Below, one piece after another: positions 3,165-25,792 of a DNA stretch of 39,630 nt. The position numbers and the translations under genes were made by a program. Under the pieces are notes generated by a model. The model worked only from the letters and a program-made list of their open reading frames with translations, had not been told where the DNA came from and searched no databases. Numbering within the stretch: position 1 is the first letter of the stretch; each line of letters begins with the position of its first letter. Origin of the DNA: a virus; the IMG/VR virus record IMGVR_UViG_3300031227_000147, positions 1-39,630 of that record; one strand, 5' to 3'.

Positions 3165-3168
3165 CACT

Positions 3169-5996: not shown

Positions 5997-6009
5997 TTGA
6001 TTTACCTCG

Positions 6010-6409: not shown

Positions 6410-6596
6410 TTTTACCCCACGCTAAATCATCGAATTCTTTGTCAACAAAAACTACTTTCTTGTCTGTAAGTTTTAATCCAGCTATCGTTATAAACCGCTC
6501 TATTTGCTCTTTGTTTGCACGAGCCAGGAGCTCATCGTATTCTTTCCATTGTTTTGTTGTTAATCCCATCACACATACTTTTTTTTCTTGTTCCAT
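6396..6596 (-). CDS. Small protein of unknown function
   Basis: 66 aa, helix-rich, with a two-strand end (KVVFVDKEFDDLAW). The start at 6596 carries the full box GGAGATGATACGAATG. The in-frame ATG inside the box (6605) is probably part of the ribosome site, not the start. It overlaps the SWIM gene by 14 nt. Confidence 0.65.
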   Translation of the reverse strand: MEQEKKVCVMGLTTKQWKEYDELLARANKEQIERFITIAGLKLTDKKVVFVDKEFDDLAWGKNESN

Positions 6597-6617
6597 TCGT
6601 ATCATCTCCGTTCTTTT

Positions 6618-6758
6618 TTATTCCCAGTACCCACATTTTGAGCATACTTTGATTTCGATTTCTCTTCCTTCTTCTTGCATTGTACTTTCTTCCCAGTCAT
6701 GTGAGTCCTTTCCATCAAGACAGACTGTTGGACTTGTGTATCCTTTCTTTGATTTCAT
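6618..6758 (-). CDS. 46-aa zinc-binding microprotein
   Basis: Reads M-K-S-K-K-G-Y ... with Cys13, His20-Asp-Trp, and C39-x2-C42 ending GYWE. The Cys/His spacing suggests one zinc site with a beta hairpin. It starts at 6758 with an ATGA overlap to the upstream membrane-protein gene and a GGTAAAGGT sequence before it, and stops with TAA at 6618. Its overlap, RBS and Cys pattern support a real gene. Confidence 0.65.
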   Translation of the reverse strand: MKSKKGYTSPTVCLDGKDSHDWEESTMQEEGREIEIKVCSKCGYWE

Positions 6759-6988
6759 TGTACCTTTACCCCCATCGTGTAGGCTATTGATGTGATCATT
6801 TTAATTGTTCCATTAAAGATTGGTGGTATTCCCATCCATGCGGTTCCGATTGGTAATGCTATAATAACTATAAGTATTGCCTTCAGGACGTTCTTGTTTA
6901 AGATCTTCCAGTAGTTTGGTTCGTAAACCATAGAATTCCACTTGATTCTTTCTTTCCAGTTTGGTTGTTTGTGTTCGTTTCGTTTCAT
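6755..6988 (-). CDS. Small membrane protein
   Basis: 77 aa. A basic, polar N-terminus (about 33 residues, likely cytoplasmic) is followed by two hydrophobic segments, VLKAILIVIIALPIGTAWMG and IFNGTIKMITSIAYTMGV, joined by a Pro-Pro turn. The start at 6988 has the full GGAGATGATACGAATG box, 57 nt below promoter E2. It could remodel the host membrane early in infection; function unknown. Confidence 0.7.
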   Translation of the reverse strand: MKRNEHKQPNWKERIKWNSMVYEPNYWKILNKNVLKAILIVIIALPIGTAWMGIPPIFNGTIKMITSIAYTMGVKVQ

Positions 6989-7044
6989 TCGTATCATCTC
7001 CTTTTTGGGCTTTTTGTTCCCATTATCCTTAGTCAAGGCGTTCA

Positions 7045-7069
7045 CCTTTAAAAAAGTTTCTATTTGTAC
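7045..7069 (-). promoter_or_regulatory. Early-type promoter E2
   Basis: Same 25-bp element as E1 and E3 (identical to E3): GTACAAATA, GAAAC (BRE), TTTTTTAAAGG (TATA region). It drives the run from 6988 towards the ParB-like gene. Its leader shares AATGGGAACAAA ... GCCCAAAAAGGAGATGATACGAATG-type sequence with E1. Confidence 0.8.
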
Positions 7070-7104
7070 TGCCATTTATGGCTAATTATGCGACTATTTA
7101 GTCA

Positions 7105-7356
7105 TTACATCCCACACTTCTTACATTCTCCCCTGCATGCCTTCCTTCTTGTTTTTAATGATTTTAGCCACTTACCCCTGCCATAATTTCGACTTGTGCT
7201 CTTAGTACCTTCCAAAAATTTTACTTTATCCTCTAAAAAATTATTTCTTACTTTAAGGCTCCTGATCTTTCCTTCAGCCATCTCACATTTGTCCTTCCAG
7301 TATTTATGCAGGCCTTTATGTCCATACTTATTAATAATATCTAATCCTTTACTCAT
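7105..7356 (-). CDS. Small basic coiled-coil protein with Cys-rich end
   Basis: 83 aa, strongly basic. Residues 20-50 are a coiled coil (KCEMAEGKIRSLKVRNNFLE). The C-terminus has CRGECKKCGM, three cysteines that could bind metal. ATGA overlap with the RHH gene. Possible nucleic-acid binding; no family assigned. Confidence 0.6.
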   Translation of the reverse strand: MSKGLDIINKYGHKGLHKYWKDKCEMAEGKIRSLKVRNNFLEDKVKFLEGTKSTSRNYGRGKWLKSLKTRRKACRGECKKCGM

Positions 7357-7772
7357 TTCAACTCCAACTTTTTGCCTGTTAAACGCTCTATTATCAACCT
7401 GAATTGCTTCCTGTTAATTTCATGCTTGTTATAAGTATTCACAAAAGATTTATAGACTCCTTCAAACGTTGTTCTCTTGATCCTTCCTGGTGCTTCGTTC
7501 TTAAGCCAGCTTATCTCATGAGGTAGTAACCCTGCGATATCTACACCTTTTGCTTTTTCCTTCTTTAATTCTTTAATCCGATCCTTGCAGTCATTTCCCA
7601 TCTGGAAGTAAGCATCCATTTTTGCTGCGAGAGTTTCCACATCCATAAACTCTTTCTTATAACGATCACATGCCCATTCAGCAAATGACGGAATTAAAGG
7701 ATTCTCTTCAGCATGCTTGATGACTTTCGTCTCAAACCTATAAGTTTTTGTTTCCTTCTTTGCTTCTTTCAT
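7353..7772 (-). CDS. Probable ribbon-helix-helix-type regulator
   Basis: 139 aa. The N-terminus, TYRFETKVIKHAEENPLIPS then FAEWACDRYKKEF, has the strand-helix-helix layout of RHH repressors. The C-terminal two thirds are charged helices. RHH proteins are among the commonest regulators in archaeal viruses and bind DNA as dimers. The start at 7772 has the full box. Immediately upstream, at 7785-7795, a second partial copy of the box (ATACGAATGGAG) sits in tandem. Being second in the first early operon, it is a candidate to control E1-E3. Confidence 0.6.
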   Translation of the reverse strand: MKEAKKETKTYRFETKVIKHAEENPLIPSFAEWACDRYKKEFMDVETLAAKMDAYFQMGNDCKDRIKELKKEKAKGVDIAGLLPHEISWLKNEAPGRIKRTTFEGVYKSFVNTYNKHEINRKQFRLIIERLTGKKLELK

Positions 7773-7968
7773 TCGTATCATCTCCATTCGTATCTACAGT
7801 TCTTCGCTGCATGATTTGTTCTTTCCTAAATTTAAGATTTTCTCCCCTGGTAGTTTTAATAATTACCCAGCCTGGATCGGTCTCATCTGTTTGTAGAATT
7901 CCTGTGTAGTAAAAGGATCCATTGTTCTTGGCAACTTCAATCTTTTCTACTGTTGTTTTTTCGGTCAT
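7738..7968 (-). CDS. First early gene, small beta-rich protein
   Basis: 76 aa. Alternating strands (GSFYYTGILQ, GWVIIKTTRGENLKFRKEQI) suggest a small SH3/OB-like barrel, similar to small nucleic-acid-binding domains, followed by a charged disordered tail. The start at 7968 is set by GAGGAGATGATACGAT. It is the first gene after promoter E3 and overlaps the next gene by 35 nt. Confidence 0.65.
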   Translation of the reverse strand: MTEKTTVEKIEVAKNNGSFYYTGILQTDETDPGWVIIKTTRGENLKFRKEQIMQRRTVDTNGDDTNERSKEGNKNL

Positions 7969-8030
7969 ATCGTATCATCTCCTCTTGTTTTGAGTTATTG
8001 CGCCCTTATTTAATTGACAATAAGTCCTAT

Positions 8031-8055
8031 CCTTTAAAAAAGTTTCTATTTGTAC
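8031..8055 (-). promoter_or_regulatory. Early-type promoter E3
   Basis: Identical to E2. BRE-like GAAAC and TATA-like TTTTTTAAA with a conserved GTACAAATA block upstream. It opens the early region (7968 downwards), right after the AT-rich gap that closes the late operon. Confidence 0.8.
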
Positions 8056-8060
8056 CATTG

Positions 8061-8243
8061 TTTTGCCTTGTTTGTTGTGAATTAAGTAAGCTTTAATTAT
8101 TCTACAACTTTTTAAATGTTTCTTTGTTCTCCCTTTTAGTTGTTAAATAAATAATACATAAATAATAGACATTCATCTATATATATTTATATATGGAAAA
8201 GTTGACGATTACTTAACTTCTAAATAACCCACAACTTTCTCCT
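8061..8243. other. AT-rich non-coding hub between late and early operons
   Basis: No supported gene. Very AT-rich, including an alternating TATATATATTTATATATGG tract at 8177-8196. An inverted repeat, AAAAGTTG (8197-8204) with CAACTTT (8232-8238), lies just after the holin-like gene and could form a long-loop hairpin terminator on the minus strand. Several ACAACTTT-type words recur. It may hold the late terminator, an early control region or a replication origin; the sequence does not decide. Confidence 0.5.
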
Positions 8244-8525
8244 CTATCTTTTCGTGATATTCTTGTTTTCCTTAAATGCAGACAATATCATATCAAAGAT
8301 TACTGCGCTTGCTGCACTCCCAATAACTGTCACATTAATCCCCAATCCTTCCGCTCCGAAGAATATCATTGATCCAATTATTGCAGTTCTTAAGACAGTC
8401 TTTCCAAGTTGCTGAGCCTCAAAACTACTAACTTTCCCATCTGCTAATGCTTTAGTTGCCCAACCCCCAACACTTCTTAATACTGGAATTCCTACTGCTA
8501 CTCCGATTTGTACCCAATCTATCAT
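8244..8525 (-). CDS. Holin-like small membrane protein
   Basis: 93 aa. It has hydrophobic segments near residues 4-18 (VQIGVAVGIPVLRSVGG) and, more strongly, 46-85 (TAIIGSMIFFGAEGLGINVT then SAASAVIFDMIL), with a short basic tail (KENKNITKR). Size, position at the end of the tail operon and topology fit a holin. No wall-degrading enzyme was found beside it, which fits an archaeal host with an S-layer, but lysis function is inference. A GGAGATGATAAA start signal precedes the ATG at 8525. Confidence 0.6.
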   Translation of the reverse strand: MIDWVQIGVAVGIPVLRSVGGWATKALADGKVSSFEAQQLGKTVLRTAIIGSMIFFGAEGLGINVTVIGSAASAVIFDMILSAFKENKNITKR

Positions 8526-8529
8526 TTTA

Positions 8530-8715
8530 TCATCTCCTAAGCACTGGGATCTTGCCCTGATGCTTATTTATTGTTATATTTATTCTTGCTTCTTGCAGAT
8601 GAGCTTCCGGACTTACGAATGATTTCTGACATATTTCACATTCAAGTCCATGCGTCCATCTTGGCAATTGTTTCTTATTACAAATTACCGCCATTATTGC
8701 ATTTATCCAATTCAT
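8530..8715 (-). CDS. Small zinc-finger-like protein
   Basis: 61 aa. CEICQKSFVSPEAHLQEA looks like the start of a C2H2 finger (CxxC, then His), but the second His is not at the usual spacing. Upstream of it are a hydrophobic start (MNWINAIMAVIC) and a WTHGLE segment. ATG at 8715 is preceded by a strong AGAGGGGGAAAAC. Function unknown. Confidence 0.6.
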   Translation of the reverse strand: MNWINAIMAVICNKKQLPRWTHGLECEICQKSFVSPEAHLQEARINITINKHQGKIPVLRR

Positions 8716-8728
8716 GTTTTCCCCCTCT

Positions 8729-8977
8729 TTAAATCTTTTCCAAATCTATTATTTTCCCTACAAAAGGATCATCAATATCTTTCTCAGTTGCAAGTTGTTT
8801 ATCGTATTTACTTTCAAGCAAACTCTTAACTTCAGCCAAATATCTTGGTTTATCAGTTACTGGATCCAAATACTTCTGTCTTAATGAAAGTCCAAGATTA
8901 TCCTTTCCGTACTTACATTCTGTCTCTACACGAAAAATACCATTCTTCTCATATATTCTTAATATTTTTATTTTCAT
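8729..8977 (-). CDS. Small protein at end of tail operon
   Basis: 82 aa, alternating strands and helices, acidic-basic mix, no cysteine pair. The start at 8977 has AAGGGGTAACC upstream. It lies between the tail hub and holin-like genes, so it may be a hub accessory or chaperone, but nothing in its sequence proves this. Confidence 0.6.
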   Translation of the reverse strand: MKIKILRIYEKNGIFRVETECKYGKDNLGLSLRQKYLDPVTDKPRYLAEVKSLLESKYDKQLATEKDIDDPFVGKIIDLEKI

Positions 8978-8986
8978 GGTTACCCC

Positions 8987-11071
8987 TTAATTATCAATTT
9001 TGAATTTTAATCTCACTTTTGCATTCACAAAGTCAGATGTTGCACTATTTGGTATTACTCTTATTCTCCAGTATCCATCCGCATCAGGATAAGTTCCGCT
9101 ATCTGTCATATCAACATTTGTTTTTAATGTATCTGAACCGAATACTCTTGAATGTTTATTGTCCCAAGCACTCGTTCCAGTATTCCAAAAATCCAAGTAT
9201 ATTGTTGCTCCTGTTGCATTAACACTTGCCGCATCTGAAACTGCATCCCCTATCGATATATAACTAAGATCTGCCGCATTAATATCATAACCTCCAGGAG
9301 GGTGATCATGATCAACTGTTGCATAGTTTCCATCATCATGATCATGATCGACTGCCGCATAATTTCCATCACCATGCGTATGTGTTTCGTCAGTTCCATA
9401 AACGGTCATGCTTCCCTGGTAATCCTGATTTCCTACACTATACATTGCAACATCCACCGTTCCTGTTGAAGTTCCAAAAAAAGGAATAGCATAAGTTTTT
9501 TTGAATGGTGACTGTGTGGTAATAAATGATAATTGAATGTCTTGAACATAAACTGTAGAAGCCACTCTTATTCGAATTCCAATCGTGTCTGTTCCACTCC
9601 ATGAATCCTCCTCAATTTCTAAATCTACATAAAGAAAAGAAAAACTACCATCTATAGCTTCATCCAGGACTAAATCCCAGGTTGTTGCAACATTTTCTGA
9701 AAAAGTATCCGATCCTTGATTACTTGTTAAAAGTTGAGATGAACTTGTTCCTGTTACCAGTGGACTGTCTTCTCCCGATAATCCCGTTATTAATGCACTT
9801 TCATCTCCTGAACTATTTTGTACTTGTGGATCCGTTCCTGTAAAACTTGCAGTTCCGAACTGAGAATTGTATGGATCAATATCATAATCAACCTTCATCC
9901 ATATAGTATCAAGACTTCCTGCTTCAGTATCAAATTCTGGAGGCACATAAAATCCTACCTTTGCTGCATGACTCGAATCCGCGTTTATTCCAGTTCCCCA
10001 CTCATTTGTTACTGTGTTTCCTTGCATATAAGTATTATCATCTGTCTGGTCCTTTTTTATTTGAGCCATGATTTTGTTCTTTGTTCTCATCAAAGTCTTT
10101 AATTCCGGATTTGTTGTTTGTAACGTAATATACGCTTGACTCTTGTTTTCTCCTTCTTCAATTCCCACAATTCTCACATCAGTATTTATGACATCCTGAT
10201 CTAATGCGTTTAATGTGATCACATCTCCAAGTACGAACCCAGTCATTTCCGGATTTGTCAAATCAAAATCATAAATGTTAGGAGGATCCTTATTAAGTGC
10301 AAGCTCTGCAGTTGCAAGCTTATTTGCTTCTGCTGTAGTCATAACACTTCTATCAGTTACTATTTTTGTGATTGTTCCATATTCTGCAATACTTGTTGCA
10401 TCTGAATCACTTCCTGTAATCTGATTGTCCCCATCTCCTTTTCCAAAAACTTTTATAGAATTCCCTCTCGGATAACCTTCCGATCTTCGAAGATTTGTGA
10501 TCTCTTTTCCTTCATTCAAAACCATGACACTTGTTGCACTTCCCACATGATCTAACACACTTATTTCAATTGGGCTCGCAGTATAATCTATGCTTATGTC
10601 TTGAGTTGTTTTATTCGCAAGATTGCTGATTGCATTAAATAAGCTTTGACTTGTAGAAAGTCTATAATCAGTATCAAATCCGGTATTAATTGTTCCTGCA
10701 CTTAAATATGAACTCTCTGTAATTATTGCTGCGAAGATTGTTGCACTTGCCGTACTGGTCCATGGACTATTTGTATAAGCTCCATTTTCTTTTGCCAACC
10801 ATACTTCATATCCGCTTGCATGAAACACTACCGTTCCACCCACGAAATAGTCAGTATTATCTATTAATCCAATAAAGTCTATTGTTCCATTTTTATAAAT
10901 TGTAACTGTTGCGCCTATCTTTAGAAGTGCTCTGTTTGTTTCTCCTGTTGCACTGAATTTAAGTTCTGCTTCGTTTACTTGGTTTAATTGTTTAGTATAT
11001 CTCCAAGACACATCTGGAACTACAGTTCCAGTATTTGTTCCCTTTGTTACGTCTATTCTATAAGTTGCCAT
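8987..11071 (-). CDS. Tail hub/tip protein with histidine-rich segment
   Basis: 694 aa. Residues 1-330 read like a baseplate hub (gp27/Tal-type): beta-rich N-terminus with TVTIYKNGTIDFIGLIDNTD, then a second domain ending GDVITLNALDQDVIN. The middle is Ser/Thr/Asp-rich beta structure. At about 555-590 lie tandem H-x-H motifs, HTHGDGNYAAVDHDHDDG and a repeat, which in phage tail needles and spikes bind iron in a trimer. A carbohydrate-binding-like beta domain follows to the C-terminus. It directly follows the distal tail gene (stop and start adjacent). No peptidase motif is seen. Confidence 0.8.
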   Translation of the reverse strand: MATYRIDVTKGTNTGTVVPDVSWRYTKQLNQVNEAELKFSATGETNRALLKIGATVTIYKNGTIDFIGLIDNTDYFVGGTVVFHASGYEVWLAKENGAYTNSPWTSTASATIFAAIITESSYLSAGTINTGFDTDYRLSTSQSLFNAISNLANKTTQDISIDYTASPIEISVLDHVGSATSVMVLNEGKEITNLRRSEGYPRGNSIKVFGKGDGDNQITGSDSDATSIAEYGTITKIVTDRSVMTTAEANKLATAELALNKDPPNIYDFDLTNPEMTGFVLGDVITLNALDQDVINTDVRIVGIEEGENKSQAYITLQTTNPELKTLMRTKNKIMAQIKKDQTDDNTYMQGNTVTNEWGTGINADSSHAAKVGFYVPPEFDTEAGSLDTIWMKVDYDIDPYNSQFGTASFTGTDPQVQNSSGDESALITGLSGEDSPLVTGTSSSQLLTSNQGSDTFSENVATTWDLVLDEAIDGSFSFLYVDLEIEEDSWSGTDTIGIRIRVASTVYVQDIQLSFITTQSPFKKTYAIPFFGTSTGTVDVAMYSVGNQDYQGSMTVYGTDETHTHGDGNYAAVDHDHDDGNYATVDHDHPPGGYDINAADLSYISIGDAVSDAASVNATGATIYLDFWNTGTSAWDNKHSRVFGSDTLKTNVDMTDSGTYPDADGYWRIRVIPNSATSDFVNAKVRLKFKIDN

Positions 11072-11833
11072 TTAATCCACATATCCATCTCTGAATGTTT
11101 TTACTGGATTTGTCAAGTTTGTTGTTGTGACTGTTGTAATATTTGCTGCCGGATCTAATTGTATTATTCCGAATCCATCTATTGTTTGAACATTCTTTGT
11201 TTCAGCTCCATCCAGTGTGCAATAAGCATATTCTGTCACATAAATTCCAGATCCTGAATTTACCATTTTAACCAGGGCATATGTGAATGCATGTCCAGTG
11301 GTTAGTTTTGCGGCTGCAATTGTGATCTCATTGCCAACATCGTCTTTAATAACCAGGTCCGCCGATCCATCCGTTATTGTTCCAGTAATTGATGTGATAA
11401 ACGTCCTTACATTTCCACCATTTGTTCCACTTGTTTTTGCCGTATCACCAAATAATACTGGAATAAAACTCTGAAATGTGGCCACATAATCAATGAAGTT
11501 TGTTCTTCCACCTACTTCAGTTCGTTTGATTTGTTTTCCTATTCCTATATGAAACTTGTCCGATTCAAAATATAATTTTTTGATCTTAATTGTTTCCATA
11601 AAATGTTTACTGCAGTCTTTCCAATGCGTTCTTTTGCTTGCCCCACTAAAGTGCCCAGTTAATAATATACTCTTTGGTGCTACTCCACCACCTGTAACTA
11701 CTATATGATGTCTTTGAAATCTTATGTTTGTCACTTCATGATTGCTGTCAGTTGTGTCATCAAATGCTTGAGGATTATAAGGCCAGGTAAACGTATCTGC
11801 TGTCCCTGTATAATTTTGTATTTTCATTGTCAT
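11072..11833 (-). CDS. Distal tail protein (Dit-like)
   Basis: 253 aa, beta-rich. The N-terminal domain (FTWPYNPQAFDD, TNIRFQRHHIVVTGG) and the position between tape measure and hub match distal tail proteins that form the ring at the tail end. The C-terminal half is Thr/Gly-rich strand structure. The family call rests on gene order and size more than on a diagnostic motif. Confidence 0.7.
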   Translation of the reverse strand: MTMKIQNYTGTADTFTWPYNPQAFDDTTDSNHEVTNIRFQRHHIVVTGGGVAPKSILLTGHFSGASKRTHWKDCSKHFMETIKIKKLYFESDKFHIGIGKQIKRTEVGGRTNFIDYVATFQSFIPVLFGDTAKTSGTNGGNVRTFITSITGTITDGSADLVIKDDVGNEITIAAAKLTTGHAFTYALVKMVNSGSGIYVTEYAYCTLDGAETKNVQTIDGFGIIQLDPAANITTVTTTNLTNPVKTFRDGYVD

Positions 11834-11837
11834 TTAT

Positions 11838-12812
11838 TTAACCCCATGTTGCATCCCACCATTGAAGGAACCATCCTCTTCTATCTTCAGCTGCACTGTA
11901 TGTTCCGCCTGGAGTAGCATTTAATCCCGCGCTTTTAATCTTTTGAAGTGCATTAATATTAGCCGGACTATTTGAAACCAACTCATCTTCCCAAGGTGCC
12001 TGGTTTCCTGTAATACTCGACCACGCCTTTTGTGGAAGTCTATTCAACATAGTATCCCCTGAACCATCACCACCACCTTCCATTAACGGTTTATCTATTC
12101 CAGTATATTTTTGTAATGCCTCAATCATTGCAGTAATTGCTTGATAAGACACATATGCTGCAGCACCAATTAATACGAAATATCCTAAAGCTGTTAATAA
12201 ACTTGCTCCAACTGTAACACCACCCATCAATGTGACCAAACTTGCAACTGACGCAATCCCAGCAAGCACTGCCGGCGCAAGTGCTAACCCTGCAAGAATT
12301 CCCACAAATAAGCCAGGATGTTCTCCTGCCCATTTTCCTATCTTTTCAAGCCAAGGCCACACTTTCTTTCCAAGTGCGATTCCCCAATCAAGAAATTTCA
12401 TTGCTAATTCTCCAATTTTCTCTTTATTACTATCAACCCATACTGCGAGTTTGTCAAGTAATCCAGCCACTTTCTCAAATGCTGGAGCCAATGCCTCCCC
12501 AAGCGATCTCTGAATTTTACCAAATGAAACAGACATTTTTGCCATTGCCGGCGCAACTGCCGGGGCCTTACTTGCAATTCCAACCAGTGCTGCAACTCCT
12601 GCAACACCCATAAACAATAATTTCTTAGCAAGTTTTCCAACTGTACCTGCTACTCGCATCATATCTGAACCGAAGGACTTTCCTTGACCTTTAGTCTTTT
12701 CAAAACCTTGATTAACTCTGGAAAATCCTCGATCTATATTGCCAGTATCTAAAGTTCCTTTAATCTTCATAGAATTACTTGCTGCTCCTGCGACTCCTGC
12801 TGCTGCTACCAT
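11838..12812 (-). CDS. Tail tape measure protein (short)
   Basis: 324 aa. Ala/Gly/Lys-rich helical N-terminus (IDRGFSRVNQGFEKTKGQGKS), followed by long hydrophobic helices (FVGILAGLALAPAVLAGIAS and others) and a conserved WPWLEKIGKWAGEHPG segment. These features and the location directly after the frameshifted chaperone gene identify the tape measure protein. At about 0.15 nm per residue the tail would be near 49 nm, short for a siphovirus. ATG at 12812 overlaps the chaperone extension's TAA (TAATG). Confidence 0.85.
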   Translation of the reverse strand: MVAAAGVAGAASNSMKIKGTLDTGNIDRGFSRVNQGFEKTKGQGKSFGSDMMRVAGTVGKLAKKLLFMGVAGVAALVGIASKAPAVAPAMAKMSVSFGKIQRSLGEALAPAFEKVAGLLDKLAVWVDSNKEKIGELAMKFLDWGIALGKKVWPWLEKIGKWAGEHPGLFVGILAGLALAPAVLAGIASVASLVTLMGGVTVGASLLTALGYFVLIGAAAYVSYQAITAMIEALQKYTGIDKPLMEGGGDGSGDTMLNRLPQKAWSSITGNQAPWEDELVSNSPANINALQKIKSAGLNATPGGTYSAAEDRRGWFLQWWDATWG

Positions 12813-13416
12813 TATTTAAACCTCACTTGATTCATCAAATCCTGAACTTTTTTATTTCTATCTTTTTTCATACTTACCGCACTCTTTACATGCATGATCT
12901 CTCTAAGATCACTTATTCTGCAATTATTAAATTCTCTTGGGCTGATTCCACATTCAAATGCTATGACTTTCCACCATATGAGTTGTTGCTTAGGATCACT
13001 TATTAAAAACCCTTCCGCATTACTATACTCAATCAGCCTTGCAAGTTTTTTGTCGACTTATTATCCGGCTCATCAATTGCCTTCATTGCATTGATAAGTT
13101 TATCAAACAATCCAGGCGTCAATTTACTCAAAAACAGGTATCTTTGATCTGTTGTCAAGTCATCCCATTCTTTTTCGACGCCAATGACCTTATTAATTAT
13201 TACTATCTCGTATGGTACTGATGTAATGTTTTCAAGTTTCTTCTTATTGTACATACTCCAATTAACTTGCGGAACTTTCTTCTCCTGGTCTATTGTCATA
13301 ATGTCCTTCAGCCACTCATTCTCATCTCCACCAGTTGTTGGTTTATACTTAAATTTTCTTCCATCAACATCGATTTCTATTGGTTTTTCATCGACGAAGT
13401 CTGTTTCATATCCCAT
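12812..13416 (-). CDS. Tail assembly chaperone, -1 frameshift fusion (gpGT-like)
   Basis: Predicted 201-aa product. The first 123 codons are those of the 127-aa short form. At 13051-13045 the sequence is A AAA AAC in the correct X-XXY-YYZ phase. A -1 slip opens a frame of 77 codons (13045-12815) with no start codon near its beginning, running to TAA at 12814-12812. The extension contains LIWWKVIAFECGISPREFNN and ends in a basic helix. This is the lambda G/GT arrangement, placed as expected between tail tube and tape measure. The short form alone ends at 13033. Confidence 0.85.
13033..13416 (-). CDS. Tail assembly chaperone, short form (gpG-like)
   Basis: 127 aa read without frameshift, ending ...KSTKNLQG at TGA 13033. 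N-terminus beta (KPIEIDVDGRKFKYKPTT), then helices with WLKDIMTI and DDLTTDQRYLFLSKLTPGLF. It binds the tape measure before tube assembly in the family model. Both forms should be made in a fixed ratio. The start at 13416 follows AGGGGGAAAA. Confidence 0.85.
   Translation of the reverse strand: MGYETDFVDEKPIEIDVDGRKFKYKPTTGGDENEWLKDIMTIDQEKKVPQVNWSMYNKKKLENITSVPYEIVIINKVIGVEKEWDDLTTDQRYLFLSKLTPGLFDKLINAMKAIDEPDNKSTKNLQG
13045..13051 (-). promoter_or_regulatory. A AAA AAC slippery heptamer for -1 frameshifting
   Basis: Zero-frame codons here are ACA AAA AAC, so the heptamer is in the standard phase. The zero-frame stop follows four codons later (13035-13033). CTTGCAAG, a short palindrome, follows directly. 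No strong downstream pseudoknot is obvious by eye. Confidence 0.85.
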
Positions 13417-14402: not shown

Positions 14403-14861
14403 TCACCTCTCCATATTTTTTCCCCATTTACCATCTGGGAAGTGTATTTTATTATGACACTTGTCGCAGATAGCAATGAGATTGTTTGTTTGATTATTTT
14501 TTCTATTTTTGTCTTTATGATGAATGAGTATCCTTTTTTCAGACTCTCCACACATTTCGCATTTATTTGTTTTAATTTTTCCATAGTATCCTCCATCAAT
14601 GTAATTATACGGTTTTTTGCTACTTTCTGACATCTGCTTTTTAGTTTTTTCACTATGCTTTTTTCCGAGCATACCTTTGTGGTTTGCTTTAATTCCTGCG
14701 ATTCTTTTTTGTTCTGTTTCTTCATTGTGTTTATGTCCTTTTTCAAATTGTCCAGCTTTATTGTGCAGTCCTTTGCACTTTTTTGAACAATATTTTCTTT
14801 TTCTCCAGTCTTGAGCTTCAAACTCAATTCCACATCCTTTACATTCGTATTTTTGTATCAT
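14403..14861 (-). CDS. HNH endonuclease with zinc finger and NUMOD3 motif
   Basis: 152 aa. The N-terminal treble-clef finger has CKGCGIEFEAQ then RKYCSKKC. NUMOD3 follows (MLGKKHSEKTKKQMSES), the DNA-binding motif of homing nucleases, and then an HNH core: CEMCG, ILIHHKDKNRKNNQTNNL, CDKCHNKIH. It is inserted between the tail terminator and tail tube genes and has its own promoter. The ATG at 14861 lies 26 nt from the TATA centre with no Shine-Dalgarno, so the mRNA may be leaderless, an archaeal trait. A second HNH is at 1831-2304. Confidence 0.9.
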   Translation of the reverse strand: MIQKYECKGCGIEFEAQDWRKRKYCSKKCKGLHNKAGQFEKGHKHNEETEQKRIAGIKANHKGMLGKKHSEKTKKQMSESSKKPYNYIDGGYYGKIKTNKCEMCGESEKRILIHHKDKNRKNNQTNNLIAICDKCHNKIHFPDGKWGKNMER

Positions 14862-16171: not shown

Positions 16172-16678
16172 TTAAGAACCATCTAAGTTTATACTTTTTA
16201 CAATAGCAACCCTGAACACTTCTGTTCCTGGAAGCCACCACTGTTTCGGAATCTTAACAATACGATATTGTCCAGTACTTGTACCTGCAGAGAACAGTTT
16301 TGCATCCTTAATAATGTCTCCTTCTTTAATCTCATAAGTAGTCGTAACTCCACCGGTTTGACTTGAATAACTTGGCTTAAAATAAAATTTTCTGTTTCCT
16401 GGAATTGCAAGGCCCATTTCATGAATTTGACGATCCTTTATTGTGATATCTTGAAACATTCCATAAAGCACTGCATTTGTTGCAGATATGTTTGTAGTAT
16501 TTCCCATTCCATCAACAGTGTCTGTTTCAGTATATACTGTATAAATGTCCCCATGTGCAAGAAGTATTTCTTGAAAGTCAGCTGCGGCATCTGCAGGGAA
16601 CGTGTCACTATCATATCCGTAGTCAAACGGACTTACATCGAATGTTATATCTTCATATTTGGTGAATTCTATTCCCAT
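16172..16678 (-). CDS. Head closure / stopper protein
   Basis: 168 aa, beta-barrel-like: ILLAHGDIYTVYTETDTVDG with YGMFQDI, then KPSYSSQTGGVTTTYEIKEGDII and RIVKIPKQWWLPG. This order matches SPP1 gp16-type stoppers, and it precedes the gp10-like gene as usual. AGGGGAAAA lies ahead of the ATG at 16678. Confidence 0.7.
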   Translation of the reverse strand: MGIEFTKYEDITFDVSPFDYGYDSDTFPADAAADFQEILLAHGDIYTVYTETDTVDGMGNTTNISATNAVLYGMFQDITIKDRQIHEMGLAIPGNRKFYFKPSYSSQTGGVTTTYEIKEGDIIKDAKLFSAGTSTGQYRIVKIPKQWWLPGTEVFRVAIVKSINLDGS

Positions 16679-16692
16679 CTTTTTCCCCTGTT

Positions 16693-17076
16693 TTAATCAA
16701 TGTTTATAATGCATGCTGCATCAATTTGTAAGGTTCCAGTTGCTCCTGGATCCCCAAGATCACTTGTGTCTATTGTTGCTCCACACCTGGTTGTGCCTAT
16801 TCCTGTAAAACTTAGTTTTCCTGTTCCAAGATCGCAATTATCTATAATATTGCAAGCATCAGCATGATCTATTTCCCAGTCCTGGTTTAATCCTGCGCAA
16901 GTACATGTGTCTGTTATTACATCACTTAAAACTAAATTAATATTATGTGCGTCTGGAGCAGTATAACCAGTATCTAAAACTAAATTAACTTGATGAGAAG
17001 TTGGTGGTGTGTAAGCTGAAACTAAACTTATAGTTATCAAAATTGTAATAACTAAAAAAAGAATTAAGTATTTCAT
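16693..17076 (-). CDS. Small secreted Cys-rich protein
   Basis: 127 aa. Signal peptide at 1-21 (KYLILFLVITILITISLVSA, then YTPP). The mature part carries two similar motifs, HQVNLVLDTGYTAPD and HNINLVLSD, and seven Cys (CTCAG, ACNIIDNC, RCG, AACI), which suggests disulfides outside the cell. TAATG overlap with the large Ig-like gene upstream. It belongs to the secreted fibre module. Confidence 0.75.
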   Translation of the reverse strand: MKYLILFLVITILITISLVSAYTPPTSHQVNLVLDTGYTAPDAHNINLVLSDVITDTCTCAGLNQDWEIDHADACNIIDNCDLGTGKLSFTGIGTTRCGATIDTSDLGDPGATGTLQIDAACIINID

Positions 17077-18371
17077 TAGGATACCTCAACAAAAGGCGTA
17101 CAATCTCCTCTCAATGTTATATTATTAGGATCGTATGCACAAATAGTATATAATCCATAATCAACTAAAACTCTCCATCCACCAGTTGAGTTAGTTGTAA
17201 CATTAGCAACAACTGTATTCGGAGTATTATTTTTCATAATAGACAATAAAGCTCCACTTAATAAGTTATCATCACTATCAGTAACATTGCCTTCCAAATA
17301 TGTTTCTTCCCAAGTATACAAAGTTCTGTTAGAACTCGCATTACAATTTCCACTTGTATCACAAGCTTCTACACTCCAATTATACTCTGATCTACGTTCT
17401 GAAAAAGTAAAAGGCAACGTATAACTTCCATTTATTAATCCTGTTGAATTCGTAAAATTATAAAATCCACCCAATAATAAAGAAACATTATCCAATGCTC
17501 CATCATCTGTAATTGTAGCATTAAAAGTAATTGAATAAGGTGCTAAACTTATATTATGATTATCTGGTGGATTAATTATTGTCACATTTGGATTTACAAT
17601 GTCCGTTATATTCATTTTCCACTCATCATATCCTTTAAGATTCGCAGTTGAATTACACATTGCATATACCGAAGATAATCCATCAGACAATGCTTGTGTT
17701 GATGGAAGTGTCCAAATATGACCAGTTGCATTTGTAGTTGTTGCTCCTGCCCAAGTCGTGTTATCATCTGAAATAAAACATTCTGCTATAATATCTGTTG
17801 TTCCATTAAAAGTTGGAGTTTTATCCGTAGTCACAAATGGTTGCACACAATCATCCGGATCTGAAGAAAGACTACACACATCTGAAATTACTGGTATAGC
17901 ACTATATTCTTTATAAATTGCTCCTTTAATAGTATAAACCCTTGAAGGATTATCAGTTTCACTAAATCCTGCTATTACATTAGCAACTAATTCAGTATCG
18001 TTTAATGGAAATGTTTTATCTGCATAATAAGAATTACTTCCCCCAGTTCCAGTAAGATAATATTCTTGACCTTCAATTAAAAAAACATTTCCTTCAAAAG
18101 TTGTTATTCCACTTGTGATATTTGTTGAACTATCCAAAACCGTCATTGAACCATTTGACAAAAACCCTTCGGTATATGTTGAACCTACTCCATCTATTTG
18201 ATATAAATAAGCACTTTTTAACATCTTTATCTTTATTCCTCTTTCACTTCCTTCGTGTCCACTATCTAAAGATCCACCAGTCCAATAAGACTCATTCCAA
18301 TCAGCACTAACTAAACCACTCATTAATACACACATTATTACAATTCCTAATAAAAAAATTTGCTTTTTCAT
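17076..18371 (-). CDS. Secreted Ig-like surface glycoprotein
   Basis: 431 aa. Signal peptide about 1-23 (KKQIFLLGIVIMCVLMSGLVSA). The mature chain looks like several beta-sandwich domains: a lectin/galactose-binding-like N-terminal part, an Ig-like unit around VNPNVTIINPPDNHNISL, and a C-terminal carboxypeptidase-regulatory-like unit (LEGNVTDSDDNLLSGALLSI). It has more than twenty N-x-S/T sequons. There is no C-terminal anchor, so it may bind the cell surface or join the fibre. It lies in an operon with a signal-peptide fibre. A host-derived origin is plausible. Confidence 0.75.
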   Translation of the reverse strand: MKKQIFLLGIVIMCVLMSGLVSADWNESYWTGGSLDSGHEGSERGIKIKMLKSAYLYQIDGVGSTYTEGFLSNGSMTVLDSSTNITSGITTFEGNVFLIEGQEYYLTGTGGSNSYYADKTFPLNDTELVANVIAGFSETDNPSRVYTIKGAIYKEYSAIPVISDVCSLSSDPDDCVQPFVTTDKTPTFNGTTDIIAECFISDDNTTWAGATTTNATGHIWTLPSTQALSDGLSSVYAMCNSTANLKGYDEWKMNITDIVNPNVTIINPPDNHNISLAPYSITFNATITDDGALDNVSLLLGGFYNFTNSTGLINGSYTLPFTFSERRSEYNWSVEACDTSGNCNASSNRTLYTWEETYLEGNVTDSDDNLLSGALLSIMKNNTPNTVVANVTTNSTGGWRVLVDYGLYTICAYDPNNITLRGDCTPFVEVS

Positions 18372-18502
18372 TTTTTCTTAAAATATTGACATTTGGAACA
18401 ATGAAACTTAATTGCTTCTCCCCCATCAATTCTATGTTTTGTTTTGTTACAATATGATTTATCCAGGTCATAATTATCACAATCGAATGGATTTTGTTTC
18501 AT
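18368..18502 (-). CDS. 44-aa zinc-binding microprotein
   Basis: M-K-Q-N-P-F-D-C ... Y-C-N-K ... H-C-S-K-C-Q-Y-F-K-K-K. Four cysteines (residues 8, 18, 35, 38) and a His give a likely single zinc site. The start overlaps the previous TGA and the stop overlaps the next ATG, both as ATGA, which is strong evidence for a real gene. It has no signal peptide, unlike its neighbours. Confidence 0.75.
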   Translation of the reverse strand: MKQNPFDCDNYDLDKSYCNKTKHRIDGGEAIKFHCSKCQYFKKK

Positions 18503-19191
18503 CTAATTGCCTCTAATTCACTTCTTGATTCTTTTATATTCTCAAGCGATTCATCCTCATTAATCTTAATTATTTGACAATCATCCTCTCCTGATTGACA
18601 CTGGCCATCTCCATTTGAATCAGCACCACCACCATTTGAGTCTTTATATAAATCACAATGAATCTCGTTTTCATGAACTCTACAAAATGAATCTTTATAA
18701 CTTATTATTTCCCCATGAACATTTACTTCTCCTGTATCTTCACATATAACCCTGTTATACTGAGTAATCTCTATTTTATCAAAACAAGTTGAATTATAAT
18801 ATTCAATGATTTCTTTAGACTTACAAGTTGAATTATCTTTTTCATCCATACAATCAAATAATTCAGTCGTTGTATAATTTTTAATACAATCTACATAAAT
18901 ATTCTTTGAAACATTCCAATACTTCGTATTGCACTCCTGAATATTTGAGACTGCTTCTATATGATCTAAAACTTTAACCCAACCACCTTTACAATAATCC
19001 CATGATGACTTTTCTTTATTAAGATAACATCTTGATTGCAATCCTGCACTCACACTCATACATTCCATTAGTTTGTCTGGTTCGTTAGCACAATAATAAG
19101 TATCAGGAGTTACATTATAGTTTAGTGCAACAATTAATACAATCATTGCTAAACCAATTACACTTCCACCTATTGCTTTATAGTTTGCCAT
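18499..19191 (-). CDS. Membrane-anchored Cys-rich extracellular protein
   Basis: 230 aa. One N-terminal membrane segment (VIGLAMIVLIVALN) followed by an extracellular-type region with 14 cysteines and about five N-glycosylation sequons, then an acidic linker with calcium-binding-like DSNGGGADSNGDGQ, ending in a charged helix. The spacing of cysteines suggests several disulfides. Start 19191 overlaps the fibre gene region by ATG just past its stop. It may hold the fibre at the membrane or act in superinfection control; both are inference. Confidence 0.7.
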   Translation of the reverse strand: MANYKAIGGSVIGLAMIVLIVALNYNVTPDTYYCANEPDKLMECMSVSAGLQSRCYLNKEKSSWDYCKGGWVKVLDHIEAVSNIQECNTKYWNVSKNIYVDCIKNYTTTELFDCMDEKDNSTCKSKEIIEYYNSTCFDKIEITQYNRVICEDTGEVNVHGEIISYKDSFCRVHENEIHCDLYKDSNGGGADSNGDGQCQSGEDDCQIIKINEDESLENIKESRSELEAIR

Positions 19192-19193
19192 TT

Positions 19194-21623
19194 TTAACTT
19201 CCTGAACAGATTTTACCACCACTTGCGAATATTATGCAGTCCGTTATTGTTTGATTATTAAAAGTTGGATTGCTCGTTGTTGTTAAAGCCTGGCCAGTAT
19301 CGTACTCAAGTTGTGTGTCCCCAATTGCATCTGCTGTAACACTTAAACCATCAGCATCCTGTGTCAATGCAGTATTTCCTGCTACACTGAATACTGTTGC
19401 TGCTTCAGATATTCCATTTCCTGCAGTATACGTTGTATCACTTACTGGTTCAACATTACAATCTATCTCTCCATTTCCACTATTATAAACACACCATTTT
19501 GCATCTGTTAAAGTTCCAGTAAAATTCACGATATTATCAAAATAACCCACATCATTGCTAAAAGTAGACACTGGCAATGCATCAACCTCAGTAGTATTAT
19601 AAACTTCAGTCTTAGTATAAAATCCTAATGCTTGAACAAAAGATTGAACAACCCTGGTATCTATTAAAGCATTAACCCAAGACGTATTTGAATCAGTGAT
19701 ATAACTCGTCAAATTCAAAAATTTTAAGTAACCAAAAGCTTCAATGTTTCCATCAGTTAAATTCTCATAAGATGTCAAATAAGTACCATCATCAGTAATA
19801 TCCCCCGCACTTATATCGCTTGGACTTCCAAGATCATCCCAATAATCAGAACCATTAACTTTTAAATCAGTTCCTGCCAAAGTTGAATTAAACCCTACTG
19901 TTCCTGATGAAGTAATTGGTCCACCAGTAACATACACGTCATCTGTTGCAACACTTGTAACAGTACCAGCTCCCGCCGCAGCCACACATTCAACACCACT
20001 TATTGTAGTATTCTGAACTATTTCTCCTGCCGGACAATCTCCAGGGGTATGTTTTGATTCAGCTGTTGAATTAACAAGACCAAGTTCTACCGTACTCGCA
20101 AATCCAGTATGGCCAGAAGATGAATAAGCTAAATTTGCTAAGTTTGCATGATCTGCCGCTTCTGCTGCAGTGAACGTAGTTGTGAAAACACTTTGAATCT
20201 CTACTGGAGCATCTGTGTTTTGTTTTATTATAATTCTTCCAATAATAATTCCCCCTTCATACCACATTGTAGGATAAGTATTAGGTATTTCTTCTGCTTC
20301 AGCAAGTGCAGAAGTAGCATAAGTATTTTGTGGGAACATTAAAGATATTTCATCAATTGCTACATTACTCCACGCCCAAATAACTGCATACTGATTGTTT
20401 CCAATTGTTGCTAATGTTCCACTTCCATCATCATAATGAGTAACATTCCATTGTGACCTATTACTTTGTTTAGTATAATTTCCATCCGCAGTTCTATAAT
20501 AATAATCAAAATCATCAGCTCCACTTGCATCAAAAGCAGACATTTCATGTTCTGTTAAACGACTCCATAGTGTTCCTTCAGTCATTGTTGGATTTCTTGT
20601 TCCAGTATATCCCAAAATTAAACCACCCACGTTATCGTCTCTTTCCAAGTGTCCTTCTGCCTGAAATCTTTCAATAATATTTGTTATTCCATCAGTAACC
20701 CACCAAGGATTGTTCAAAACGTATAATTCCCCATTTTGGTTAATTACTGAACCAAGTGGGAATTGTGTATCTAAATCCCAAGTATCAGTAGTCCTGTTTG
20801 TTATTATTGGACTTCCACCATTATAATCAACACCATAATACATAATTGTATTTGTTGGCACCGTAAATCCTGTTGAATCACTCCAATCAAAAGACATAAG
20901 TTCTGCAGTATCATTATCTGTTGCTTTAATAAATCCTGCTCCTGATGTAATATTAATTGTTGCACCATCAACTGTAATAATTCCTCCTGTTGCTCTTCCT
21001 GCTGAACTAAACAAATCCAATACAATTCCAACAGTATTATATGTTGCCCCATTAAGAGACGGAAAACCTATTAAATCTCCCCCTGAATTATAATTTAAAA
21101 CAGTTGAAGCCAATCTTGTCCTATTCCATAAATTTCCTGCTTGGAGAACATCGTTCCCACCCATATCTAAATCTCCAGACATAGTATCCCCAACAGTTTT
21201 AACATAGGTCCCATCATCAGTAATGTCTCCAGCATTAATGTCTCCTGGAGTGTTTAAGTCATCCCAGTAATTACTGCTATTAACATTAAGGTCAGGTTCT
21301 GAACTTGTTATTCTTGCATCTACTGAACTATTAAACCAAGTCATCTTAATACTTAATTCGTTTGCTACATTCTCAAAGATTGTACTACTCCATCCAGTAA
21401 GCGAAGCCCACCAGGTTGTACTATTTGATACTGATGCTGTCACATCTGTCAATCCACTTCCATCTCCTATGAAGTATGTTGCAGTAATATTTGATGCATT
21501 ATAAATATTATTTGTTCCCATATCAAGATTTTCATCTACTCTAAAAGGATCCCCAGCCATAACCAGCCCAACGCATAGTAAGACTGCAAGCATAATTCCG
21601 ATTAAATTAATTGTTAGTTTCAT
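19194..21623 (-). CDS. Fibre-like protein with signal peptide
   Basis: 809 aa. Signal peptide at 1-23 (KLTINLIGIMLAVLLCVGLVMA, then GDPF). Fibre-type repeats follow: DMGTNNIYNASNITA, then SNYWDDLNTPGDINAGDITD and a second copy SDYWDDLGSPSDISAGDITD about 480 residues later. The middle is beta-rich, with Trp/Tyr-rich segments. The C-terminal third has fibre motifs TYTAGNGISEAATVFSVAG. Many N-x-S/T sequons. A tail fibre with an export signal is unusual. Start at 21623 overlaps the small fibre-associated gene (ATGA). Confidence 0.8.
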   Translation of the reverse strand: MKLTINLIGIMLAVLLCVGLVMAGDPFRVDENLDMGTNNIYNASNITATYFIGDGSGLTDVTASVSNSTTWWASLTGWSSTIFENVANELSIKMTWFNSSVDARITSSEPDLNVNSSNYWDDLNTPGDINAGDITDDGTYVKTVGDTMSGDLDMGGNDVLQAGNLWNRTRLASTVLNYNSGGDLIGFPSLNGATYNTVGIVLDLFSSAGRATGGIITVDGATINITSGAGFIKATDNDTAELMSFDWSDSTGFTVPTNTIMYYGVDYNGGSPIITNRTTDTWDLDTQFPLGSVINQNGELYVLNNPWWVTDGITNIIERFQAEGHLERDDNVGGLILGYTGTRNPTMTEGTLWSRLTEHEMSAFDASGADDFDYYYRTADGNYTKQSNRSQWNVTHYDDGSGTLATIGNNQYAVIWAWSNVAIDEISLMFPQNTYATSALAEAEEIPNTYPTMWYEGGIIIGRIIIKQNTDAPVEIQSVFTTTFTAAEAADHANLANLAYSSSGHTGFASTVELGLVNSTAESKHTPGDCPAGEIVQNTTISGVECVAAAGAGTVTSVATDDVYVTGGPITSSGTVGFNSTLAGTDLKVNGSDYWDDLGSPSDISAGDITDDGTYLTSYENLTDGNIEAFGYLKFLNLTSYITDSNTSWVNALIDTRVVQSFVQALGFYTKTEVYNTTEVDALPVSTFSNDVGYFDNIVNFTGTLTDAKWCVYNSGNGEIDCNVEPVSDTTYTAGNGISEAATVFSVAGNTALTQDADGLSVTADAIGDTQLEYDTGQALTTTSNPTFNNQTITDCIIFASGGKICSGS

Positions 21624-21847
21624 TGTGTGATCACCTTCTTCCAGTCAGTTGACGCCGTAATTCCAGCTGCTAAATAAAATTTTGAGTTTGTTGTATCATA
21701 ATAAATTGCACCAATCATTGTCGGAGTACTACTTGGCGCGCCTGCTCCACTTGTAACCATGGATCTTGATTCTTGATCTGTAACCATTGAATTCCAATCT
21801 GCACTTGTGAAGTCATCATTTGCTTCTTTTGTATCATCCCAACTCAT
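21620..21847 (-). CDS. Small fibre-associated protein
   Basis: 75 aa. N-terminal helix (DDTKEANDDFTSADWNSMV), then a beta motif GAIYYDTTNSKFYLAAG, common in fibre C-terminal or attachment domains. No signal peptide, so it stays inside the cell or virion. ATGA overlap with the fibre. Could be an attachment adaptor or chaperone; the sequence does not settle this. Confidence 0.65.
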   Translation of the reverse strand: MSWDDTKEANDDFTSADWNSMVTDQESRSMVTSGAGAPSSTPTMIGAIYYDTTNSKFYLAAGITASTDWKKVITQ

Positions 21848-21848: not shown

Positions 21849-22676
21849 TTAGTCCACCAATATGGAAGGCCTTATTCTTATTGTTGCCCTTCTCATTTTT
21901 CTTTCATTAATCATTCTTTGAATTACTTCTCTCCACTGAGGATAAGGTTCACCCTTGTTCACTGTTAATTCTCCTAATGAATAACTTGTATTAAAAGTGT
22001 ATGTTCCACCAATCGCATATATTGCAACATAAATTGCTGCTTCGACTTCCATGTATCTTTTTATGTAATAAGGAATTTGAAGTTTTGTAATTGTGCTGTC
22101 TGCCGCATGTGTTTGAACCAATTGATCAACTATAATCACTCCACCTGCAGGAGTTCCACTTATTTGTGCTGCTTCTTTCTTTCCATCCATTCCCAATATT
22201 TCGATCCAGTCTTCATCTGCAAAACCGGTTATACTTGCAACTGTCATGCTTACTGTTGTTCCTGCTACTGTCGCAGTTGATAATGAAGTATTTGTTGTGC
22301 TATCTTCAAGTAATCCAAAAACGTATTTAATAAACGTATTGTTAGTTCCTTGAATAAAACTTCCACCTTCTGCACTATTACTTAATATGATCTTTCCGCT
22401 TTCTTTACTCCAATCAATATATGCAGGAGTGATTGTTGTGCTGTCATTAAGTGTTAATGCTCGCACACTCAATAAAGGATTTTTCATTAAGAACATTCTT
22501 GGCAAACTATTCCCATCTCGATGTTCAATTCTGGTTGTTGGTACAAAAGACGTATTCATCCATCTTTTCATTTCTGCTTCGATTATAGTAATTGCTTGAT
22601 TTATTAAAGTATCAGTTATAAGACTGGTTGGAGCTCCACTTGCCCTTCTCACATCATCTGCAGTTATGTATGTCAT
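21849..22676 (-). CDS. Head-tail adaptor (HK97 gp6-type)
   Basis: 275 aa. N-terminus YITADDVRRASGAPTSLI then DTLINQAITIIEAEMKRWMN is the helical adaptor core, followed by beta domains and a C-terminal helix with PQWREVIQRMINERKMRR. The protein joins the portal ring. The inserted beta domain (about residues 95-190) is larger than in the classic family. ATGA overlap with the coiled-coil membrane gene. Confidence 0.75.
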   Translation of the reverse strand: MTYITADDVRRASGAPTSLITDTLINQAITIIEAEMKRWMNTSFVPTTRIEHRDGNSLPRMFLMKNPLLSVRALTLNDSTTITPAYIDWSKESGKIILSNSAEGGSFIQGTNNTFIKYVFGLLEDSTTNTSLSTATVAGTTVSMTVASITGFADEDWIEILGMDGKKEAAQISGTPAGGVIIVDQLVQTHAADSTITKLQIPYYIKRYMEVEAAIYVAIYAIGGTYTFNTSYSLGELTVNKGEPYPQWREVIQRMINERKMRRATIRIRPSILVD

Positions 22677-22990
22677 CTTTTAATTAACTCCTTAACATCT
22701 GATTTTATCTCAGTAATATCTTCTTGAATTGAAATAATTTTTTCTTGATACTGAATTATTGTTTTGCTATTAAACTCAATCTTTTCTTCCAACTTATTAA
22801 TAACTTCTGTATGTCTTGGTCCGGCTTCATCATATGCTGATTTTAAATGATCAACATCACCTTTAATCGTAACACCATATGCAACAACTGTTGTTACACA
22901 ACTAACCAAAGTTATAAAAATCATAATAAGAGCCATTGCTCCTTTTTGGATTACAAATCCTCCATTTCCGTCTGATTTCATTAATGGCAT
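22673..22990 (-). CDS. Membrane coiled-coil protein, XhlA-like layout
   Basis: 105 aa. Single hydrophobic segment near the start (ALIMIFITLVSCVTTVVAYG), then a long coiled coil (INKLEEKIEFNSKTII, IISIQEDITEIKSDVKELI). This layout occurs in phage XhlA-type lysis accessories, but those have the membrane segment at the other end, so the call is uncertain. Its position among head genes is odd for lysis. Weak AAGGAATA Shine-Dalgarno. Confidence 0.6.
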   Translation of the reverse strand: MPLMKSDGNGGFVIQKGAMALIMIFITLVSCVTTVVAYGVTIKGDVDHLKSAYDEAGPRHTEVINKLEEKIEFNSKTIIQYQEKIISIQEDITEIKSDVKELIKR

Positions 22991-25090: not shown

Positions 25091-25136
25091 ATTAAAATAA
25101 AAAAATAAAAAAAGTGTTCAACCTATAAAGCTGAAC
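25091..25136 (-). terminator. Hairpin plus T-tract terminator
   Basis: Minus strand GTTCAG-loop-TTGAAC (25136-25116) followed by two T7 runs separated by A. The TAG stop of the decoration-like gene sits inside the loop. It ends the capsid operon ahead of the beta-helix gene. Confidence 0.75.
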
Positions 25137-25452
25137 TTGGGTTTGGTACTGCGAATCCTTTCACGACATAATACCTTTGTTTGTTATCAGTTGAACCAGT
25201 AACCGTCAAGGTTATTGTTCCAGTTGTAACCGAGGTTGTTGGATCTTCTACAGCAACAACACTATTTGCTGTTGTATGTATATATCCTTCAACACCCATT
25301 AATCCAGTTGCGTTAATACCATATTTTGTCAAATCGACATCAATTTCATCTGTATCATCAACTGTATTAATTGTCTTGATAACAATCTCGTTGTATACAT
25401 CTCCTCGCTGTACTCCAACAATCTCATAGTCTGTTCCTTCAATTAGCGCCAT
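25123..25452 (-). CDS. Decoration-like protein, copy B
   Basis: 109 aa, beta-rich. Shares roughly 70% identity with copy A at 25463-25792, including EGTDYEI, RGDVYNEIVIKTINTVD, DLTKYGINATGLMGV and FAVPNPSSAL. Size, duplication and place right after the capsid gene fit a capsid-surface decoration or turret protein. Copies differ mainly in the middle loop (EGYIHTTANS against RGDVQTTANS). Stop TAG lies in the terminator hairpin. Confidence 0.75.
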   Translation of the reverse strand: MALIEGTDYEIVGVQRGDVYNEIVIKTINTVDDTDEIDVDLTKYGINATGLMGVEGYIHTTANSVVAVEDPTTSVTTGTITLTVTGSTDNKQRYYVVKGFAVPNPSSAL

Positions 25453-25462
25453 CTTTTAGCAC

Positions 25463-25792
25463 CTATAAAGCCGAACTTGGGTTTGGAACCGCAAATCCTT
25501 TTACAACAATGTATGTTTGATCATTGGTTGCACCTGTCAAAGTCAACGTAACACTTCCAGATGATACAGTAGTTGATGGATCTCCTTGTGCTACAATTGA
25601 GTTTGCAGTTGTTTGCACATCTCCTCGAACTCCCATTAAACCAGTTGCATTAATTCCGTACTTTGTCAAATCAACTACGATTGTGTCACCAGTGTCTACA
25701 GTATTGATTGTTTTAATAACAATCTCATTATAAACATCTCCACGTTGGACGCCGGTAATCTCATAATCAGTTCCTTCTACTAATAGTCCCAT
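25463..25792 (-). CDS. Decoration-like protein, copy A
   Basis: 109 aa, tandem paralogue of the next gene. Same RGDVYNEIV start and PNPSSAL end. A recent in-place duplication is likely, since flanking sequence and the TAG stop with ATAGGTGC are also alike. It lies 10 nt below the capsid gene, so it would be made at capsid-like levels. Confidence 0.75.
   Translation of the reverse strand: MGLLVEGTDYEITGVQRGDVYNEIVIKTINTVDTGDTIVVDLTKYGINATGLMGVRGDVQTTANSIVAQGDPSTTVSSGSVTLTLTGATNDQTYIVVKGFAVPNPSSAL

Follow-up and report, generated by a model that had tools for sequence, protein, structure and literature searches.

The fibre cassette

The window, that is the whole 39,630-base contig of the virus record IMGVR_UViG_3300031227_000147, belongs to a virus of the head-tail type and encodes portal, protease, capsid, connector and tail genes. 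Between its head-tail adaptor gene and a head-closure-type gene lie four open reading frames (ORFs), which the original prediction had read as a fibre with a signal peptide, a membrane-anchored protein with 14 cysteines, an Ig-like protein with more than twenty N-glycosylation sequons (N-X-S/T) and a secreted protein of 127 amino acids (aa). All four ORFs were found, on the minus strand, and each of these descriptions is borne out by reading of the sequence. Signal peptides were called here and below by rule alone (a charged start, a hydrophobic core and a cleavage motif).

The fibre itself (19194..21623, as all features of this cassette on the minus strand) has 809 aa with 22 sequons and 7 cysteines. 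It begins with MKLTINLIGIMLAVLLCVGLVMA followed by GDPF, which by rule reads as a cleavable signal peptide of residues 1-23 (21555..21623) with a charged start, a hydrophobic core of 3.15 on the Kyte-Doolittle scale and a cleavage site placed by eye between VMA and G. The fibre start overlaps the stop of a 75-aa gene (21620..21847) in an ATGA, and inside the 75-aa ORF sits a GGTGATC (21629..21635), read from the sequence as a putative Shine-Dalgarno-like site of the fibre, so that translation of the fibre would be coupled to that of this virion-type gene. The 75-aa product is a stand-alone 'head' domain, with DDTK..DDF.SADWN.MVTDQ plus a DWKKV fold, and its homologues in relatives are either a separate gene (for example in loci L010, L012 and L018) or the N-terminus of cytoplasmic fibres.

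Next comes the companion of 230 aa with its 14 cysteines (18499..19191), whose N-terminal hydrophobic helix has no obvious cleavage motif and reads as a signal anchor. Its AlphaFold2 model places the transmembrane anchor in a helix of residues 5-22 (19126..19179), followed by a small beta domain at about residues 30-80 with pLDDT >90, and the ectodomain would lie outside. The companion family is divergent, with C34, S48 and C67 invariant (family alignment A4), and a Foldseek search with the model returned nothing below E 0.001. The Ig-like protein of 431 aa (17076..18371; 24 sequons) begins with MKKQIFLLGIVIMCVLMSGLVSA followed by DWN, by rule a signal peptide of the cleavable type (18303..18371), and has matches to Big_13, Big_7 and CarboxypepD_reg at E about 1e-4, none of which reaches its curated cut-off. 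The 127-aa protein (16693..17076), with 6 cysteines and YTPP...VNL repeats, begins with MKYLILFLVITILITISLVSA followed by YTPP, likewise of the cleavable type (signal peptide 17014..17076), and has a signal-peptide relative in L098 (13037-13402; 49% over 49 aa). None of the four proteins has a further hydrophobic segment beyond the N-terminal one, and none has a match in NCBIfam.

Tail-fibre ancestry of the exported fibre

Residues 195-582 of the fibre (19878..21041) form a phage tail-fibre domain, matching phrog_5668 'tail fiber protein' at E 6.1e-34, and this central domain is shared at 30% with the tail fibre of Stenotrophomonas phage DLP6. The fibre also holds the repeat VGDTMSGDLDMGGN, of a kind typical of tail fibres. 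Relatives of the domain were found in seven viral contigs (L002-L008, 43-53%), and not one of the seven starts with a signal peptide. A model of the domain has a low mean pLDDT of 50.5, and its Foldseek matches 1-4, a cyanophage tail fibre and the tail fibre of Haloferax tailed virus 1 (HFTV1, matches 3-4), may be taken as supporting only. The protein thus appears to be a variant of the tail fibre and not an ordinary one, because despite the domain match it carries a signal peptide where phrog_5668-type fibres are cytoplasmic, and its attachment-type domain is the separate 75-aa gene instead of the N-terminal part of the same chain.

The slot in related viruses

About 90 related loci were collected by capsid and adaptor searches, and the search for the same block in related viruses that had been proposed with the original prediction found an exported fibre in 30 of them (window included), nearly always between the adaptor and head-closure genes. 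A typical exported slot runs from a small virion-type protein to a signal-peptide fibre of ~200-1360 aa and an N-anchored protein, with optional LamG or Ig proteins that have signal peptides. The signal-type N-terminus of the window fibre recurs in L012, L010, L018 and L100. A hydrophobic core above 2.5 (by script) is present in 29 of the 30 exported-type fibres, in none of five fused fibres and in 3 of 531 core proteins; in the sole exported-type fibre under this value, that of L074, the N-region is long and a hydrophobic stretch is present.

The fused fibres occupy the slot in five loci (L013, L017, L020, L089 and L097), where the 75-aa domain is joined in frame to a fibre of 449-804 aa that has no signal peptide, few cysteines and sequons at chance level. 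Relatives lacking the hydrophobic start had been named beforehand as evidence against export; five close relatives do indeed lack one, but what they have instead is another fibre, fused and cytoplasmic, and not the same protein minus its signal. In a further five loci (L059, L076, L077, L078 and L081) the slot is empty, and the cassette has been relocated as a unit in L031 and L133. In L133 the region 1303-6330 encodes an exported fibre of 893 aa with a companion and, besides them, a fibre-like protein of the cytoplasmic kind (562 aa) and a short protein of 86 aa that resembles the docking domain.

Where the genes after an exported fibre can be seen, the next one or the next but one almost always encodes an N-anchored protein. 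These companions are of three unrelated sequence types with the same topology, and no membrane-anchored neighbour was found in the fully visible fused-fibre slots of L020 and L097. Larger anchored ectodomains with many sequons occur in L061, L049, L074 and L079, that of L079 having a CBM96 carbohydrate-binding module, and lectin-like domains are a feature of some relatives only. Among the LamG proteins of the slot, those of L020 are without a signal peptide and L012 has one with it; the exported LamG protein of L012 (9414-12821) also has a calcineurin-like phosphoesterase domain (PF00149).

A domain of the form SDC.G...RVLTL replaces or accompanies the 75-aa protein in L074, L049, L079 and L090, and in L074 (18813-19478) it is fused to the head-closure protein, a hint that docking domains sit at the virion neck. 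The contig L009, apparently outside this capsid family so far as the contig reaches, encodes (2964-13182) a 1553-aa signal-peptide protein with 96 sequons, together with a 622-aa anchored partner and small proteins resembling pilins.

Sequons and cysteines

Dense N-glycosylation sites had been foreseen for fibre and companions alike. This holds for the window fibre (22 sequons against 13.7 expected by shuffling, p=0.009, the reverse motif occurring 10 times) and for the Ig-like protein (24 against 8.1, p=0.0002), weakly for the 230-aa companion (5 against 2.4, p=0.07), but not for the 127-aa protein, in which 0 were counted. Pooling the 30 exported fibres (20,578 aa) gives 817 sequons against 415 after shuffling and 395 reverse motifs, an excess beyond composition of the kind looked for in an archaeal N-glycosylated surface protein, and with repeated contexts counted once there are 762 sequons against 381 reverse motifs. 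The five fused fibres (3,478 aa) have 55 against 48 expected and 43 reverse, and core structural proteins from the same viruses have 1110 against 1048, which is no excess. Since fused fibres and core proteins are without it, the sequon excess goes with the signal peptide, as would be expected if the sites are used. Cysteines stand at 0.98 per 100 aa in exported fibres and 0.17 in fused fibres.

A gain of many sequons by the shared tail-fibre domain on its transfer found no support, there being 7 in the window and 2-8 in cytoplasmic relatives. At the C-termini of several exported fibres (window, L010, L028, L038, L049 and L079) two cysteines lie ~8-13 residues apart in a short C-terminal stretch, for example TDCIIFASGGKICSGS, and this C..G..C pair is often present in exported fibres and absent in fused ones.

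Exchange of exported and fused states

On the adaptor and capsid trees the state of the slot, exported or fused, has changed at least 3 times on branches with good support. The sister loci L012 (exported) and L013 (fused) have DNA ~83% identical across capsid and adaptor, and their similarity ends at the start of the 75-aa gene; in nucleotide comparison of the window with L097 the similarity likewise breaks at the 75-aa gene and resumes just past the slot. This pattern is that of a cassette exchange, with the break at or in the docking domain. In a virus family of DPANN archaea, then, a cytoplasmic fibre has repeatedly been exchanged for one that is secreted, apparently glycosylated and accompanied by a membrane anchor, while the rest of the genomes stays close, and matched pairs such as L012 and L013 are natural material for asking how archaeal tailed viruses use the cell surface.

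Where both are readable, the class of the mature fibre N-terminus (VDEN or FTPQGD) matches the type of the neighbouring virion-type protein. Mapped on the adaptor tree, co-switching of the fibre N-terminus with the docking protein is seen in two supported independent pairs only and has no significance, and the association may be simple linkage. A replacement of the fibre by the hub in exported-type viruses found no support, as the hub is conserved in both the fused-type L097 and the exported-type L098.

The host

A profile search of GTDB contigs with the capsid protein gave 5 matches, namely 2 in Woesearchaeota, 1 in Nanoarchaeota, 1 in an 'archaeon' and 1 in a WOR-3 bin; capsid relatives occur in 3 of 193 genomes from the order of the Nanoarchaeota metagenome-assembled genome (MAG), and a phage collection held no match to the capsid protein. 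Because these relatives sit in Woesearchaeota and Nanoarchaeota MAGs, the host is very probably a DPANN archaeon. STT3, the archaeal oligosaccharyltransferase, is above cut-off in 5 of the 5 genomes carrying capsid relatives, and so the host enzyme that an archaeal N-glycosylated surface protein calls for is at hand.

Proposed surface display and its alternatives

The sequences themselves show which genes are present and that they are conserved, that sequons are in excess, that the central domain descends from a tail fibre and that the block has been swapped with a fused cytoplasmic fibre; actual export, glycosylation, fibre-companion binding, timing and purpose are what we infer from them. 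That a tail-fibre-type protein is exported along with glycosylated companions is strongly supported, because signal peptides are conserved, sequons selected and cysteines present, the host is archaeal and its genomes have STT3/AglB. That much of the original prediction stands, and between the two outcomes it had offered, a fibre joining virions late or adhesion proteins shown on infected cells, the evidence leans to the latter without settling the matter.

On balance, and by a narrow preference, we take the block to be a late-operon surface-display cassette made from the virus's own fibre module, by which the infected cell would show a glycosylated fibre complex. The small virion-type 'head' protein would remain in the cytoplasm of the DPANN archaeon while the fibre, coupled to the 'head' gene, would pass the Sec pathway, lose its signal peptide, be N-glycosylated by host STT3/AglB and form disulfides outside. 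The product of the next gene would be a type II membrane protein (N-terminus inside) whose cysteine-rich or lectin-like ectodomain holds or accompanies the fibre, and the signal-peptide Ig and LamG proteins would contribute extra surface domains. Display would be late in infection, to judge from the place among structural genes, and its purpose is most likely contact with other cells, or occupation of receptors so that progeny are not trapped. A virus part may in this way have been turned into a surface display system, and for episymbiotic hosts the question arises whether the viruses alter cell-cell contact.

The main competitor is a virion fibre that matures, is glycosylated and trimerises outside the membrane, to be picked up by released virions via the 75-aa docking protein at neck or tail. 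It would explain why the exported fibre shares a slot with the fused fibres, whose N-terminal domain is the 75-aa domain kept as a separate gene beside exported fibres, and why the fibre N-terminal class goes with the type of its virion-type neighbour, and the window shows no other obvious fibre gene besides the conserved hub. Against this, a non-enveloped tailed particle cannot hold the membrane-anchored companion that almost all exported fibres have beside them, L133 encodes a fibre-like protein of the cytoplasmic kind in addition to its exported one, the class association comes down to the two pairs and perhaps to linkage, and the candidate fibre gene gp42 of HFTV1, a solved archaeal tailed virus with a virion fibre, has no signal peptide. 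We regard late joining as unlikely, if well worth keeping in view, and its fuller form, a receptor-binding fibre made, glycosylated and folded outside on a virus-encoded anchor before it joins the non-enveloped virion through a separate docking protein, as a doubtful proposition; if true, tailed viruses would here have a new way of assembly, with docking domain and exported shaft made as separate proteins. Display is preferred because a membrane-fixed partner cannot belong to a non-enveloped particle, and it fits better with the outward-facing anchored partners of almost every exported fibre and with the presence in L133 of both exported and cytoplasmic fibre-like proteins.

It is quite improbable that the gap between adaptor and head-closure genes merely gathers genes for the host surface or for immunity, as in superinfection exclusion or host adhesion, that have nothing to do with a virion fibre. 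Such cargo would account for the quick turnover of content, the Ig, LamG and CBM domains, the one LamG protein with a phosphoesterase domain and the five empty slots, but the fibre has a phage tail-fibre domain and repeats of tail-fibre type, it starts within the end of the virion-type 75-aa gene, the order of fibre then anchor is nearly constant, and of 241 genomes from the order of the host just 2 were found to have the anchor family, there beside long sequon-rich proteins. A misread start, the fibre being an ordinary cytoplasmic one, would find an opening in signal peptides judged by rule alone, yet it is scarcely credible when ~30 divergent loci keep the hydrophobic start and cleavage motifs along with the twofold sequon excess and cysteine enrichment, all absent in the fused fibres.

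Several observations weigh against surface display itself. The module occupies the slot where relatives keep a presumably virion-attached fibre and retains the 75-aa domain beside it, which fits late joining; the fibre itself lacks a membrane segment, and its attachment to the companion is putative; in L093 the main fibre is not directly followed by a companion, and L136 and L139 have anchored proteins with no exported fibre just before them. The shared tail-fibre domain, too, has no clear enrichment in sequons over its cytoplasmic relatives.

Known systems

The exported fibre would work most like PblB, a phage tail protein acting as an adhesin on host cells (PMC4508584), which is homologous to a tail fibre protein and for which a putative signal peptide has been reported in the pneumococcal form (PMC4508584). 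The likeness to PblA/PblB of Streptococcus mitis phage SM1 and to pneumococcal PblB is that of a phage tail-type protein ending on the host cell surface, and here also a tail-type gene lies within the structural gene block, from adaptor to head-closure. The analogy differs in route, partner and host: S. mitis PblB is freed by phage-induced permeabilisation and binds other cells, whereas in the present system, as read from its genes, ~30 loci have a Sec-type signal, there is a dedicated partner anchored in the membrane, the host is archaeal and sequons are in excess. PblB in bacteria apart, the open-access literature searched held no precedent for signal-peptide tail fibres in archaeal viruses. 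HFTV1 resembles the window virus in being an archaeal head-tail virus whose tail fibre is matched by the low-confidence model, but its fibre is a virion part, and gp42, which was picked as the fibre for its length, has no hydrophobic segment at its start. Tail fibres are in general taken to assemble in the cytoplasm. The spikes of archaeal pleolipoviruses are exported, glycosylated surface proteins in the envelope of a membrane virus, whereas the window virus is of the head-tail type and has no envelope.

Neighbouring genes

The upstream border of the slot is the head-tail adaptor, or connector (21849..22676, minus strand), which matches phrog_442 head-tail adaptor at E 1.2e-5 and is conserved in 45 loci. 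Its downstream border is the head-closure-type protein (16172..16678, minus strand), assigned by position and conserved in 11 loci, for which domain-family and phrog searches gave no family match. Just before the adaptor a protein of 105 aa that combines a single membrane helix with a coiled coil (22673-22990), a possible holin or tether, is kept in 11 loci. Amid the tail genes is an HNH-type cysteine-rich protein (14403-14861), probably a homing endonuclease of a sort widespread among these viruses, with a similar gene at the matching place in L097 (10144-10575). A protein of 123 aa that has sequons and begins with a hydrophobic segment (36844-37215) is distant from the fibre block, and two tandem 109-aa paralogues behind the capsid gene (25123-25792), a pair kept in L010, are probably decoration proteins.

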